Shown here: positions 4,951 through 11,547 of the stretch, in pieces
Position numbering within the stretch: the first letter of the stretch is position 1
Layout of the letters: every line of letters begins with the position of its first letter
NCBI GenBank assembly: GCA_022848865.1
Contig: JAJISE010000015.1
Span: 1-41,178 of the forward strand
Source of the DNA: Candidatus Thermoplasmatota archaeon
Lineage (GTDB): Archaea; Thermoplasmatota; Thermoplasmata; RBG-16-68-12; JAGMCJ01
Direction: 5' to 3'
Length of the DNA stretch: 41,178 nucleotides
Program-made: the position numbers and the translations under genes
Notes under the pieces: model-generated
Database searches by the model: none
What the model was told of the DNA's origin: nothing
What the model saw: the letters and a program-made list of their open reading frames with translations, nothing else

Positions 4951-5697
4951 GTGGATCTAGAGCTCGGAACCGCCGTTCGGAGGCGAAAAAGGGAAAAGCA
5001 CATTCGCATATTCATTCCCGTGAAGGATTTCCAGGAGAAGCTCGAAGTCACGAAGTTGACGCTCAGATGGGCGATCAGCGAGTTCGAGAGAGTGGCCCTT
5101 GCCTGCAGCTTCGGGAAGGACAGCGTCACCGTTCTCAGTCTGGCCCGCGAGATCGACCCACAGATCAAGGTCTTCATGATCAGAACCGGATACGGCTTCG
5201 AAGAGACGGAGAAGTTCAAGAACAGGCTGAAGGAAGAGTGGGACCTCAACCTGGAAGAGATATCCCCGTCCGTGAGCAAGGACGAGCTGGAGGCAGAGCA
5301 CGGCGAGGACCTCTATTCGCGCGACCCGAAGCTGTGTTGCGAGGTCCTGAAAGTGGAACCCACGATAAGATACCTGAATAACCTGGACGCGTGGATAACA
5401 GGTCTCAGAAGTGATGAGACGGAATTCAGAACAAACCTCAGGAGGGTCGAGGAATACGAAGGGATGCCTACGAAGGTCAATCCGATCGTTGACTGGACAA
5501 ACGATGAGGTGTGGCGATTCATCAAGGACAATGGGATTCCCTACAACCCGCTGTACGATGAGGGTTACGCGAGCCTGGGATGCAAGCCGTGCACTCTTGC
5601 CGGAACGTGGGGGCGGTACGAGAGGGCAGGCAGGTGGCACGGGAAGGAGAAGAAGGAGTGTGGGATGCACCTCATGGACTCCTCCGACAGTGAATGA
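4951..5697 (+). CDS. cysH: Phosphoadenylyl/adenylyl-sulfate reductase family protein (CysH-like)
   Basis: The 248-residue product is a PP-loop ATP-pyrophosphatase-fold protein with the loop CSFGKDSV at residues 52-59. It has the paired cysteines of iron-sulfur APS reductases (C129-C130 and C211-x-x-C214) and a C-terminal ECGMH with C237, which matches the catalytic ECG(I/L)H of APS/PAPS reductases. The family reduces activated sulfate to sulfite using thioredoxin. The [4Fe-4S] cysteine set argues for APS rather than PAPS as substrate. The GTG start at 4951 is weakly supported, and an in-frame GTG at 5020 is an alternative. No ATP sulfurylase or sulfite reductase is nearby, so the pathway cannot be completed from this window. 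Confidence 0.85.
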   Translation: MDLELGTAVRRRKREKHIRIFIPVKDFQEKLEVTKLTLRWAISEFERVALACSFGKDSVTVLSLAREIDPQIKVFMIRTGYGFEETEKFKNRLKEEWDLNLEEISPSVSKDELEAEHGEDLYSRDPKLCCEVLKVEPTIRYLNNLDAWITGLRSDETEFRTNLRRVEEYEGMPTKVNPIVDWTNDEVWRFIKDNGIPYNPLYDEGYASLGCKPCTLAGTWGRYERAGRWHGKEKKECGMHLMDSSDSE

Positions 5698-5837: not shown

Positions 5838-7613
5838 CTATTCCTCTGGTGACTCAGGAGCCTCAGGTTCGAACTCTTCCCCGGCTGGGCCGCTTCCTCT
5901 CCTGGCCATAACGGCGGCCAGCAGTGCGACGATCGTTAGGACGACAAGCGCGACTATGACTATCCAGGACCACATTGGCATCTCGCCTTCAATGGCTGCA
6001 GGCGATGCGGATGCTGAGGTCATTCCAGTCGGAATCTCATTCCCGTCGAAGTCAACGGCTGTGACCACGAAGTAGTGCTTGCCGTCGAGTCCTGCCACCT
6101 CGTATGTGGTCGTCGTCTTGTCAAAGACGGTGCCAACAGGTGCCAGGCCACTCACATTGGTGATGTCGTCAGTGCTTGCGTAGATGTTGTAGTAGGCGAA
6201 ATCCGCCGCAGTGCTTGCAGTCCAGCTCAGTTCCACTCTGTCGTCCTTCGCTGTCGCCGTCAATCCGGTCACAACGTTGGGAGCGTTCAGGACCTCGATG
6301 ACCTGCAGCGAGAACTCGTCAGCGGCCTCAAGCAGCTCTAGCGCGTAGTAGTAGTTGTGCACACCGTGGCTCTTATCCTCTTCCACGAGGTGCAGATTGA
6401 ACGAAGCGTTGTCAAGCAGATTCTGAGCTATGGTCAGCGTGTGATCGCTCGCGGTTCCTGCAGTCAACACAGCTTCGAGTGCCGTTTCCGCATCTGCAAC
6501 ACTATCCTCAACATCGCTGATCAGTGAGGTCACGTCTGCCTGCCATGCGTCTATCTCAGCCTGTGCGGTCGCGTTGTCTATGAGCTCAGGCGGGATTCCT
6601 CCTGTCTGATGGCAATCCCAGCAGGCCTGCGGGGTGGGCTCGAAGTAGTGTCCCTGGAGTGCAGGAGTCACGCCGCGTGGCGTGTTGTACATGTGACAAC
6701 TCGTGCATTCCACTGTGCCCATGAAGGGAGCTCCCATTTCGGAGCCTGTAATCCCCTCCCTCATCTCACTCTGTGAATGATGTGGTGAGCTGGGTGATGT
6801 CGCCCCTCCTGAGGTATGGCAAGTTGTACATACGTCCTCGGGGGATTGCCTCAGCTGATAATCGTTAGCTGTTGCGCTGTGTGTATCGTGACAATCGGCA
6901 CAAGTTATGCCTCGCCACTCATCTTTTGGTATGTCGACCGCGGTCCCGTAGGTCGCAGCCGGATCCCACTGAGATGGGGACTTGCACTCCGCACAGTATG
7001 TGTTCAAACCACCTGGATCGGTCTGTGCTCTGTTGTCCCACGGTGCATGAGCGGAGGCGTTCCATCCCATCACTGTGTCATCACCGAACTGACCGTCTCC
7101 GCCGTGGCATCCTGCCTCGTCGGTACCAGCGCATGATCCGGCGTACGGGTCCCGGTCAGTATTGATCGTGCTTGCGGCGTTAGTGGGAATGTCGGGACCT
7201 GGATGGTCACCGCCCGGTCCATGACAGACCTCGCACTGGATTCCCAGCAACGGCAGGTTGTATGAATCGTTCCATGGTAGGCCTGGATCGTAGCCACCGA
7301 TGGACGTTTCATTGTAGCCGACAACGTGACAGGGCAAACAAGACCCCCCTGCGTACGTGAATTTGTTTGTGGGGGTGCCCTGATAGCTCCAGTTGTTAGC
7401 GAAATCCGTGCCGTGCAACGTCGTATGCCAGTCTTCGACCTGGGTGTCATGACAACCTTCGCAGTACGCAACTCCCTTGTAGTTGGCGGGGTTTCTGGTG
7501 CCCTGGTCAGACGTGTCTACGGTCTCTCTGCTACTGTCGATCTGTGAGAACACTAGCAGAAGACCTACTGTTATTGCGATTCCGGCTATCAGAAACAGTA
7601 TCTTTCTGTTCAT
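5838..7613 (-). CDS. Membrane-anchored multiheme c-type cytochrome with NrfA/ONR-like CXXCK site
   Basis: The 591-residue exported protein starts with a signal-like helix (residues 4-22). Seven CXXCH heme sites begin near C51, C92, C127, C238, C262, C303 and C331. There is one CAECKSP site at C207-K211 and a possible CX7CH site at C161-H170. Three CXXCH, then CXXCK, then four CXXCH is the order of octaheme nitrite reductases, and CXXCK-SP, GITCADCH and CTSCHM resemble NrfA. The NrfA catalytic tyrosine context after the second CXXCH following the CXXCK site (CTTCH here) is not seen, so the activity is uncertain. A helical domain with SHGVHNYYY (residues about 350-440), a fibronectin type III domain (about 445-535) and a C-terminal helix with an acidic tail follow. 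Confidence 0.88.
   Translation of the reverse strand: MNRKILFLIAGIAITVGLLLVFSQIDSSRETVDTSDQGTRNPANYKGVAYCEGCHDTQVEDWHTTLHGTDFANNWSYQGTPTNKFTYAGGSCLPCHVVGYNETSIGGYDPGLPWNDSYNLPLLGIQCEVCHGPGGDHPGPDIPTNAASTINTDRDPYAGSCAGTDEAGCHGGDGQFGDDTVMGWNASAHAPWDNRAQTDPGGLNTYCAECKSPSQWDPAATYGTAVDIPKDEWRGITCADCHDTHSATANDYQLRQSPEDVCTTCHTSGGATSPSSPHHSQSEMREGITGSEMGAPFMGTVECTSCHMYNTPRGVTPALQGHYFEPTPQACWDCHQTGGIPPELIDNATAQAEIDAWQADVTSLISDVEDSVADAETALEAVLTAGTASDHTLTIAQNLLDNASFNLHLVEEDKSHGVHNYYYALELLEAADEFSLQVIEVLNAPNVVTGLTATAKDDRVELSWTASTAADFAYYNIYASTDDITNVSGLAPVGTVFDKTTTTYEVAGLDGKHYFVVTAVDFDGNEIPTGMTSASASPAAIEGEMPMWSWIVIVALVVLTIVALLAAVMARRGSGPAGEEFEPEAPESPEE
6975..6995 (-). other. CXXCK heme-binding motif (putative catalytic heme)
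   Basis: The codons for C-A-E-C-K-S-P, residues 207-213 of the cytochrome, lie here. A lysine in place of the usual histidine is the proximal ligand of the active-site heme in NrfA and octaheme nitrite reductases. This is the only such site in the protein. Confidence 0.8.
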
Positions 7614-7635: not shown

Positions 7636-7653
7636 TGGTTTCAATTGAAACCA
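7636..7653. promoter_or_regulatory. 18-bp perfect palindrome, likely operator
   Basis: TGGTTTCAATTGAAACCA is a perfect 18-bp inverted repeat in the divergent region between the two cytochrome genes. It starts about where transcription from the minus-strand TATA box at 7675-7686 would begin, 23 nt upstream of the cytochrome ATG. That is the classic place for an archaeal repressor to block elongation or RNA polymerase loading. The cognate regulator is not known. Confidence 0.6.
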
Positions 7654-7889: not shown

Positions 7890-7910
7890 TACCGAATGGA
7901 GAGAGAAGCC

Positions 7911-9825
7911 ATGACGAGAAGAGAGATTGCGGTTGCGATAGGTTTGTTTGCAGCCCTTGTGACCCTGATGGCTCTGATCCACATTGAGACGTCAGCATCT
8001 GCTGATGGAGTCAGAAGCACGCGCGGCGAAGCGGACAACTCATATATGGACACGGCGACGTACATCGGTTTGGACCAGTGCGCCCTTTGCCACAACAGTT
8101 CCGCCTACGCCTTCAAATACGACACCTGGCAGGGCTCTCTGCACAGTAAGTCGCTGCAGGACCCTAGCACCGAGACAATCATCCCAACGATTTGGACTGG
8201 AGCCCTGAACCTGACCGAGGACGGCGTCTGGGGCAATATCACGCTGCACGAGGTCCGATACTTACCACGTTGACCTGGGAAGCGGCCATAACTACACGGT
8301 CTGGAAGGTCATGGGGGTCGAATGGAGGCAGCGCTACGTTACGGAAATCGGCAACAGCAGGTATACCCTCCCGCTCCAATGGAACGTTGTGACGGCGGAA
8401 TGGGTGCCTTACGACTTGGGCAACTGGTTCGATACGCCCGGCATTCCGAAGACGCCTGCCTATGAACATTCGTGGGACAGGCAGTGCGCAGGCTGCCATA
8501 CGACCGGTACGACGATTGCGTACGTCGGTGCGGAGTGGGTGGCGAATTACTCGGAGACGGCTGTTGGATGCGTGGCGTGCCACGGACCTAGTGGCGATCA
8601 CTCCGAGGATCCCGATTTCATATGGAGGTCAGCCGACTCCCGAATCTGCGGACAATGTCACGGCAGAGGTGCCAGCATGGCCACCGAGGGTGGCATGTCG
8701 ATCGTATGGCCTTGGGGTGCTGACGGCAAGTACCACCCGGGAGACGACATCACAGACTACCTCGACAGGGTTGACCCTATCAACGATCCTGACGCATTCT
8801 GGCCAAACAACATGTCCAGAATACACCTTCAACAGTACATCGATTGAGCGGGTTCGGCCCATGCGAACGCCCTGACAACTATAACGACGCTGCCGTTCGG
8901 AGAGGACGCGTGCCTGGAGTGTCACTCCGCGGACTACTGGCTCGCCGAGAAGCATGGAGGCCCCCTGCCGACAAAGGAAACTGCCCTGTGGAGTATCGAA
9001 TGCGCGAGATGCCACAACCCTCATGGGAATCCAGCAAACGACAAGATGCTCTGGAAGTCTGAAGACGAGACCTGCGAGCAGTGCCACAATTCAGAGAATG
9101 CGGGTCCGGGCGACACGCCGCATCATCCGAACACTGAACTAATCGAGGGCAATATCAACGTCACGGGGCTGGACGGCAGCCCTTGGATGAACGGAGACGT
9201 CGGGTGCACTGACTGCCACATGGTTCTGGTTGCCACAAGCGCAGTTCTGGGCGATATACCGACCCATACCTTCGGCTTCGCTAATCCACAGGAGACCATC
9301 GACCACGGCATGCCCAACGGGTGCACGTCTTACTGTCATGACGGAGTGAGCGGTTCCCCGAAGACGGAACAGAAAGCAGTGAACCTAATCGACGAATGGA
9401 TGGCGAACTACACCGCCAGAGAGGCGGATGTCGATACCGTGATAGAGCAGGCCAGGAACGCGCTGATTGCTGCGGAGGGTCTGGGCTTCAATGAGGAAGA
9501 AATAGCCGGGGCACAAGCCGCGTTTGACGATGCCAACTTCTCGTACGAGTACGTTCTGTCAGACCGTTCCGGGGGAGTGCACAACAATCCTTTCCAGATG
9601 GCCATCCTCGACTACGCTGAGGCGACCGCTCAAAGCGTGATTGACGACCTGACGCCAGTCACGACCGATGGAGAAGAAGCCCCGCTGGACATGATGTGGA
9701 TCTACCTTGCCCTAGCGGTGATAATCATCGTTGTGGCCATCATCGCGGTAGTGGCAGCCTCGAGGCGAAGAGGAGCACCTCCTGAAGAGCCTTACGAGGA
9801 AGAGGAGCCGCCAACAATCGAGTAA
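7911..9825 (+). pseudogene. Multiheme c-type cytochrome broken by one frameshift and one in-frame TGA
   Basis: Three segments together encode one exported cytochrome of about 638 residues. The first (from ATG 7911) runs to a frameshift at 8255-8256; dropping one C there joins LHEV to DTYHVDLG and continues the protein. The second runs to an in-frame TGA at 8845-8847, after which the same frame continues as AGSAHAN. Heme sites across all segments are CALCH, CAGCH, CVACH, CGQCH, CLECH, CARCH, CEQCH, CTDCH and a CTSYCH variant. A helical GVHN domain and a C-terminal anchor helix with a Pro/Glu tail end the protein. The rest of the sequence is well preserved, so recent decay or sequencing error are both possible. 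Confidence 0.8.
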
Positions 9826-10089: not shown

Positions 10090-11547
10090 ATGAGATCTAT
10101 GGAATTATTCCGTAAGCATAGTGGGCCATTTGCGTGCGTACTGGTCCTTTTCGCCGCGCTTCTCTGCACCGTGATGTTGGGCACCACGATAGTGATTGCT
10201 CAAGACACCGAAGCTCCCGAAATCGACCACACACCGGTGACCGAAGGATGGGTAGGCGTGGAGATACTGATCTCCGCCACCGTGACTGACAACGTGGAAC
10301 TGGACGAAGTCTGGCTGAACTACACAAATGTGACTGGCATTGGATTCAATGAGACAATGACCCCCGATGGGGACATATACAATTACACCATACCAGCGCA
10401 GTCTCCTGCGGGCACCGTAGACTACTTCATCTGGGTAAACGACACAGAGGATAACCAGAACCTAACAGCCACGAGCACGATCACCGTCTCGGTGGACGAT
10501 GTGCCTCCCGAAATCGACCACACACCGGTGACCGAAGGATGGGTAGGCGTGGAGATACTGATCTCCGCCACCGTGACTGACAACGTGGAACTGGACGAAG
10601 TCTGGCTGAACTACACAAATGTGACTGGCATTGGATTCAATGTCTCAATGACCGAGGATGGAGACGCATATACCTACAGCATGCCAGCGCAGACCTCCAC
10701 GGGAACTGCAGACTACTTCATCTGGGTAAACGACACAGAGGATAACCAGAACCTAACAGCCACAAGCACAATCACCGTCTCGGTGGACTCCGATGCTCCC
10801 GAAATAGATCATACGCCGGTGACTACCGCCAATGCTGGCGTGACATTCAACATCTCCGCCACCGTAACTGACAACGCTGCCGTCGATGAGGTTCACTTTG
10901 ACTACACGGACGTTGGTGGCGCTCATCACAACGAGACAATGATACTGGTGACGGGAGACACATACAACTACACGATACCAGCGCAGTCTTCTGCAGGTAC
11001 ATTGGAATACTTCATCTGGGCAAACGACACGAGCGATAACCAGAATCTGACTGGGAGCTATACTATTGATATTCAAGCCGCGGACACTACTGACCCGACG
11101 ATAACTCACACGCCCGTGGAGAGTGCCACAGCCGACAAAGAGGTGTCGATCGAAGCCACGATCACGGACAATGTTGGCGTAGAGAGTGCAACCCTCTACT
11201 ACAGGAAGCAGGGTGATGCAACCTACACGAGCGCCACTATGAGTGTGTCCGGTGACACCTATACAGCTACGATACCGGCCTCGGCGGTGACAACCGACGG
11301 AGTGGAATACTACATCTCTGCTACGGACGGCGTGAACGTGGCCACTTCGCCAGCAACAAATCCAACAACGTCGCCTCACGAGATTGAAGTCACGGAAGAA
11401 GCCCCGCTGGACATGATGTGGATCTACCTTGCCCTAGCGGTGATAATCATCGTTGTGATCATCATCGCGGTAGTGGCAGCCTCGAGGCGAAGAGGAGCAC
11501 CTCCTGAAGAGCCTTACGAGGAAGAGGAGCCGCCAACAATCGAGTAA
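10090..11547 (+). CDS. Surface protein with four Ig-like repeats and C-terminal anchor
   Basis: The 485-residue exported protein has a signal peptide (hydrophobic residues about 14-37, ending VIAQD). Four Ig/cadherin-like repeats of about 95-97 residues follow, each opening with a D/P-E-I-D-H-T-P-V type motif and ending with an EDNQNLTATST-like strand. Many N-x-S/T sequons suggest N-glycosylation outside the cell. One C-terminal helix (LDMMWIYLALAVIIIVV) and a basic then Pro/Glu-rich cytoplasmic tail anchor it. The tail is almost identical to that of the upstream cytochrome because of a segmental duplication. Role: probably cell-surface structure or adhesion, possibly a partner of the cytochromes; inferred from context. 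Confidence 0.85.
   Translation: MRSMELFRKHSGPFACVLVLFAALLCTVMLGTTIVIAQDTEAPEIDHTPVTEGWVGVEILISATVTDNVELDEVWLNYTNVTGIGFNETMTPDGDIYNYTIPAQSPAGTVDYFIWVNDTEDNQNLTATSTITVSVDDVPPEIDHTPVTEGWVGVEILISATVTDNVELDEVWLNYTNVTGIGFNVSMTEDGDAYTYSMPAQTSTGTADYFIWVNDTEDNQNLTATSTITVSVDSDAPEIDHTPVTTANAGVTFNISATVTDNAAVDEVHFDYTDVGGAHHNETMILVTGDTYNYTIPAQSSAGTLEYFIWANDTSDNQNLTGSYTIDIQAADTTDPTITHTPVESATADKEVSIEATITDNVGVESATLYYRKQGDATYTSATMSVSGDTYTATIPASAVTTDGVEYYISATDGVNVATSPATNPTTSPHEIEVTEEAPLDMMWIYLALAVIIIVVIIIAVVAASRRRGAPPEEPYEEEEPPTIE
10216..10351 (+). repeat. Internal repeat unit 1 of the Ig-like protein
   Basis: These 136 nt look identical to 10507-10642, at an offset of 291 nt (97 codons). The lack of synonymous change shows recent tandem duplication or gene conversion of one Ig-like repeat. 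Confidence 0.85.
10507..10642 (+). repeat. Internal repeat unit 2 of the Ig-like protein
   Basis: Second copy of the 136-nt block at 10216-10351. Repeats 3 and 4 of the same protein are much more divergent. Confidence 0.85.

Follow-up and report, generated by a model that had tools for sequence, protein, structure and literature searches.

A predicted nonahaem cytochrome of the OcwA branch with a lysine motif at the catalytic haem position in a Thermoplasmatota archaeon

We propose that P0001, a multihaem cytochrome of a Candidatus Thermoplasmatota archaeon, is an OcwA-type terminal reductase, anchored at the cell surface by its tail and equipped with a single NrfA-like lysine pocket, a reading towards which we lean with some caution. 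The protein may be a new variant of terminal reductase in which lysine replaces histidine at the catalytic haem, and we infer its surface exposure, the direction of its electron flow and the type of acceptor that it serves. Its gene lies in the window, by which we mean the whole stretch of 41,178 nucleotides that was analysed (contig JAJISE010000015.1, assembly GCA_022848865.1), and has an orthologue in a sister genome that is 90% identical. The preliminary description of this DNA had placed a catalytic-type lysine haem here in an octahaem protein resembling octahaem nitrite reductase (ONR) and NrfA. The lysine haem is real and well placed; the branch and the haem count need correction. The features of P0001 are collected in Table 1.

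Table 1. Coordinates of P0001 and its features within the window
Feature	Residues	Positions	Strand	Basis
Nonahaem cytochrome gene P0001, 591 aa		5838..7613	(-)	ORF and translation
Hydrophobic signal/anchor segment, N-terminal	~1-25	7539..7613	(-)	hydropathy; helix 2-26 in model
Haem 1, CEGCH	51-55	7449..7463	(-)	alignment
Haem 2, CLPCH; counterpart in OcwA is the second open haem	92-96	7326..7340	(-)	alignment; PMC6703420
Haem 3, CEVCH	127-131	7221..7235	(-)	alignment
Haem 4, CAGTDEAGCH (CX7CH)	161-170	7104..7133	(-)	conserved columns in alignment
Haem 5, CAECKSP (CXXCK); Lys211 at 6981-6983	207-213	6975..6995	(-)	translation, alignments
Haem 6, CADCH	238-242	6888..6902	(-)	alignment
Haem 7, CTTCH, no Tyr after	262-266	6816..6830	(-)	alignment
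Putative distal pocket of haem 5, His278-His279	278-279	6777..6782	(-)	alignment to OcwA HH380/381 and E. coli NrfA
Haem 8, CTSCH	303-307	6693..6707	(-)	alignment
Haem 9, CWDCH	331-335	6609..6623	(-)	alignment
Three-helix bundle typical of the NrfA superfamily	~347-443	6285..6575	(-)	confident model helices; Pfam Cytochrom_C552 300-443
FN3-like domain	~446-540	5994..6278	(-)	model strands; Foldseek matches to many FN3 structures
Predicted C-terminal transmembrane helix, then short acidic tail	~545-571 (helix)	5901..5981	(-)	model; hydropathy

The canonical motifs of P0001 follow the order three CXXCH, one CXXCK and four CXXCH, and the CAECKSP, GITCADCH and CTSCHM sequences to which the preliminary description drew attention are all present. 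Its octahaem count had overlooked a ninth site. Between haem 3 and the CXXCK motif lies C161-X7-C169-H170, in the columns that hold haem 4 in all relatives, where the motif is CXXCH or CX3CH; in an alignment of 27 homologues the two cysteines and the histidine of these columns are invariant while the spacing varies by member as CX2CH, CX3CH, CX6CH or CX7CH. Because this conserved CX7CH site adds to the eight canonical motifs, P0001 is best read as a nonahaem cytochrome. One orthologue, L052 (5989-7398), is without CXXCH at haem 2, where CGDSMLPCH would amount to a CX6CH site.

Placement within the superfamily points consistently to OcwA and OmhA. A search with the single sequence returned as top matches 6qvm (OmhA, 5.6e-16) and 6i5b (OcwA, 1.3e-13). 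When a profile of the archaeal family and three bacterial relatives was searched against the PDB, OcwA was matched over nearly the whole haem domain at 1.1e-88 and OmhA came second at 6e-60, followed by MccA and NrfA at ~1e-24 and ONR at ~1e-22; this whole further group, at about 1e-25 to 1e-14, was covered in part, and no profile match spans NrfA or ONR end to end. Pfam assigned Cytochrom_C552 (the NrfA family) to residues 300-443 only and Cytochrome_C554 to residues 51-132, with no match of P0001 to PF13447, the multihaem model of the type of HAO, an enzyme marked by a P460 haem that is cross-linked to Tyr. As the full-length AlphaFold model, built with 27 sequences, had low confidence in the haem region (a mean pLDDT of 65), the haem domain was modelled alone with 53 sequences, giving a pLDDT of 78 and a pTM of 0.76. 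Foldseek with this model, which contains no haems and is of lower confidence in the haem 4-5 region, found OcwA and OmhA best (1.3e-10; TM 0.57 and 0.53, respectively), with NrfA, ONR and MccA next at TM ~0.4. Because RMSD values are large (8.7 A full-length to OcwA), the fold comparison backs the OcwA branch and not atomic detail. The match to ONR and NrfA proposed earlier thus stands for the superfamily and for the position of the catalytic haem, and the branch is instead that of OcwA/OmhA, best in both sequence and fold; membership in the octahaem ONR group was rejected because P0001 has a ninth haem site and matches OcwA. For residues 34-139 there is also a resemblance, at 5e-19, to NF041198, a model of UshA-like (seleno)proteins, and the multihaem selenoprotein MccSep is among the matches of the family profile; together these suggest that P0001 has a four-haem module in common with them. 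Cytochrome c554 of Nitrosomonas, with four haems only, matches the module of haems 1-4.

OcwA of the bacterium Thermincola potens (PDB 6i5b) is a nonahaem cell-surface terminal reductase of electrodes and metals, for which slow reduction of nitrite and hydroxylamine is also reported (PMC6703420), at about 1 per minute. P0001 shares with it nine sites in like order, the distal His pair of haem 5 and the three-helix bundle, but differs in having CXXCK rather than CXXCH at haem 5, CX7CH at haem 4, no His-His pocket at haem 2 and a shorter loop between haems 1 and 2. Relative to OcwA it also adds an FN3-like domain and a membrane tail, so that the FN3 fusion and the predicted tail anchor of the preliminary description are both retained. 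OmhA of Carboxydothermus ferrireducens (PDB 6qvm), an undecahaem S-layer cytochrome, has eleven haems where P0001 has nine, and its N-terminal part is longer. With NrfA, P0001 has in common CXXCK at the catalytic haem, the pocket His and the C-terminal helices, whereas NrfA has five haems and a pocket Arg and Tyr, neither of which is found alongside the nine sites of P0001. The ONR of Thioalkalivibrio shares the order of canonical motifs, but P0001 has a ninth site and lacks the ONR Tyr, a residue that in ONR belongs to a pocket with a Tyr-Cys cross-link and a calcium site. Superfamily fold and profile matches connect P0001 to the sulfite reductase MccA, whose catalytic haem is the equivalent of OcwA haem 2 (PMC6703420), where the pocket is lost in P0001; MccA carries a wide CXnCH at the haem 2 position, whereas in P0001 haem 2 is CLPCH and the wide motif is at haem 4.

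The preliminary description would have been overturned had the lysine haem proved to lie away from the ONR/NrfA active site; comparison places it at that position by way of OcwA haem 5. In the single-sequence search, the family profile and the homologue alignment alike, K211 aligns with the His of OcwA haem 5 (CLKCH). Haems 5-9 of OcwA superpose on the NrfA haem core, which puts haem 5, five-coordinate and with the distal pair HH380/381, at the NrfA active site (PMC6703420). The family profile also matches the Lys211 column to CWNCK of D. vulgaris NrfA, although this segment of the alignment, taken alone, is weak. On the distal side, H278/H279 align with OcwA HH380/381 (residues 351/352 when counted in the PDB chain), and hhalign sets H279 opposite the pocket His of E. 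coli NrfA in an alignment that covers the pocket His to the helices only, without CXXCK. This distal His-His pair is retained in all six members of the P0001 clade. Haem 2, which in OcwA is the other open haem and has HH281/282 (PMC6703420), fares differently: that pair aligns to a region where many relatives have HHPxYxEW or a similar sequence and P0001 has GDGQFGDDTVMGW, and the His-His pair is absent from 6/6 members of the clade. Neither of the remaining NrfA pocket residues has a counterpart, as the Tyr was not found after haem 7 in the 27-homologue alignment and no conserved Arg precedes CXXCK among the orthologues. The missing Tyr after CTTCH and the short spacing there had been correctly recognised, and point to the OcwA branch. 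Haem 5 is probably five-coordinate, ligated by Lys211 and open on its distal face.

Departures from histidine are concentrated at this haem. Among 60 homologues and OcwA, 52 sequences have His as the proximal residue of haem 5, five have Lys, three have Arg and one has a gap; Lys or Arg thus occupies haem 5 in 8/60 sequences, haem 1 in 2/61 (CNSCRH in L044, 7806-10067; CNGCKH in L045, 8525-10663) and none of the seven other haems, which always have His. L044 and L045, orthologues 35-38% identical, retain CXXCK, and the orthologues L052 and L053 (2-1654) have CXXCR in the Lys211 column; since the motif is kept at such divergence, with CXXCR in the latter two, CXXCK at haem 5 is beyond chance. 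L042 (9637-11796) likewise has CXXCR at the haem 5 position. Lys and Arg at haem 5 are confined to two well-supported, separate clades, one being that of P0001, with four Lys and two Arg members, and the other including the neighbouring paralogue type, where the sister genome has His, genome G090 Lys and genome G159 Arg. A single origin in one clade was rejected (p-AU 0.00065), so at least two ligand changes are needed, in an unrooted tree where gain and loss look alike. Haem 5 has His in the OcwA-like paralogues that stand in arrays in relatives of the window genome (L038, L039, L040, L034 and L036), where small cytochromes with 12 haems are also present.

In the window and the sister genome alike, the P0001 gene lies opposite a second, divergent cytochrome on one side; on the other, cysH-like and CitMHS-type transporter genes are oriented tail-to-tail with it. 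The divergent OcwA-like cytochrome of the window (7896-9825) is broken by a frameshift around 8255 and by a stop codon in frame at 8845, and is either a pseudogene or an assembly error; its sister-genome counterpart is a single 649-aa ORF (L037, 9610-11559). A near-identical C-terminal membrane tail, APLDMMWIYLALAVIIIVV...EEPPTIE, ends both this cytochrome (9046-9825) and the Ig-like repeat protein encoded by the gene that follows (10090-11547). A 16-bp perfect palindrome, GGTTTCAATTGAAACC (7637-7652), precedes the P0001 start by about 24 bases and is a possible operator, which occurs once in the genome even when one mismatch is allowed and which the sister genome carries at the equivalent place with one mismatch. 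Orthologues in L044, L045, L052 and L053 have CcmF or CcmABCE genes nearby, the three of them with enough flank have GlcD-type FAD dehydrogenases, those in L044 and L045 have GlcF-type subunits as well (the L044 neighbours being identified by similarity to scanned L045 genes), and those in L052 and L053 are flanked by multihaem cytochromes. These ccm and GlcD/GlcF neighbours in three other lineages fit a respiratory role. The window genome has a GlcD/GlcF pair elsewhere than at the cytochrome locus, and a search of it for a dedicated CXXCK lyase gave one CcmF-like and one CcmC-like gene only. Some bacteria, E. coli included, need dedicated lyases for CXXCK, and S. oneidensis apparently does without (PMC12285233). 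We infer that haem is attached at CXXCK and, in relatives, at CXXCR. In the papers found, with subscription papers outside the search, no OcwA-type cytochrome with CXXCK is described, nor is any multihaem cytochrome reported to have haem attached at CXXCR.

In the mechanism that we propose, the hydrophobic N-terminus would export P0001 and the C-terminal helix would anchor it to the membrane, with the FN3-like domain as a spacer between. A membrane donor would reduce the nine-haem chain, and electrons would pass along c554-like haems 1-4 and NrfA-like haems 5-9 to exit at the exposed, Lys211-ligated haem 5 beside His278/His279, where a small or shuttle-type extracellular acceptor would be reduced. 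The second open pocket, which lies over haem 2 in OcwA, would have been dropped. Alternatively, P0001 could be a pure electron-transfer cytochrome that serves partners or minerals, with Lys or Arg at haem 5 tuning the redox potential or marking lost catalysis, a reading that we regard as possible if somewhat unlikely. It would account for the absence of the pocket Arg and Tyr, which nitrite chemistry needs, for the interchange of Lys and Arg inside each clade and for the many His-type paralogues and 12-haem cytochromes of related genomes, but it sits poorly with a distal His-His pair kept by every clade member and with a ligand change that falls mainly on the haem that is catalytic in relatives.

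The preliminary description had suggested a variant nitrite, hydroxylamine or sulfite reductase. That P0001 is a true ammonia-forming nitrite or hydroxylamine reductase, an archaeal variant of ONR or NrfA, we think very unlikely. CXXCK at the right haem, the conserved pocket His and the superfamily fold speak for this reading, whereas the nine haems, the missing Tyr and conserved Arg and a position on the OcwA branch speak against it, as does the supply of nitrite: no nitrate reductase was seen in the window genome, the sole PF00384 match being a formate-dehydrogenase-like molybdoenzyme. A Prismane-family match there was rejected as a hydroxylamine reductase, being a CO dehydrogenase. The convergent PAPS/APS-reductase-like (cysH-like) gene at 4951-5697, which adjoins P0001 in the window and the sister genome, raises the further idea of a sulfite reductase partnered with it, and a search of the window genome for the sirohaem domain NIR_SIR found none. 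Such a link through the neighbour is weak, and the idea itself is scarcely credible: the two genes converge, CysH should be cytoplasmic and the cytochrome is expected to lie outside the cell, no cysH-like neighbour was seen beside orthologues elsewhere, PF01747 ATP sulfurylase was not found in the window genome (the CysD/CysN type was outside the search) and OcwA does not reduce sulfite (PMC6703420). As the genome is 96% complete, all of these gene absences are tentative.

A surface terminal reductase with a lysine pocket remains the reading that we prefer. OcwA ties surface electron transfer to the nitrite-reductase superfamily, yet has His at its catalytic haem. A wider proposition, which we consider unlikely to hold in full, is that the ligand of a catalytic-type haem has switched between His and a basic residue (Lys or Arg) at least twice, and that CXXCR haems exist, work in extracellular reductases and are attached by ordinary archaeal Ccm; the arginine orthologues are its most surprising part and also its least certain. 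With His, Lys and Arg all represented at one ligand among close relatives, the role of the NrfA lysine could be tested directly. The same natural set would also allow tests of how archaeal Ccm handles CXXCK and CXXCR, and of whether uncultured Thermoplasmata respire extracellular acceptors.
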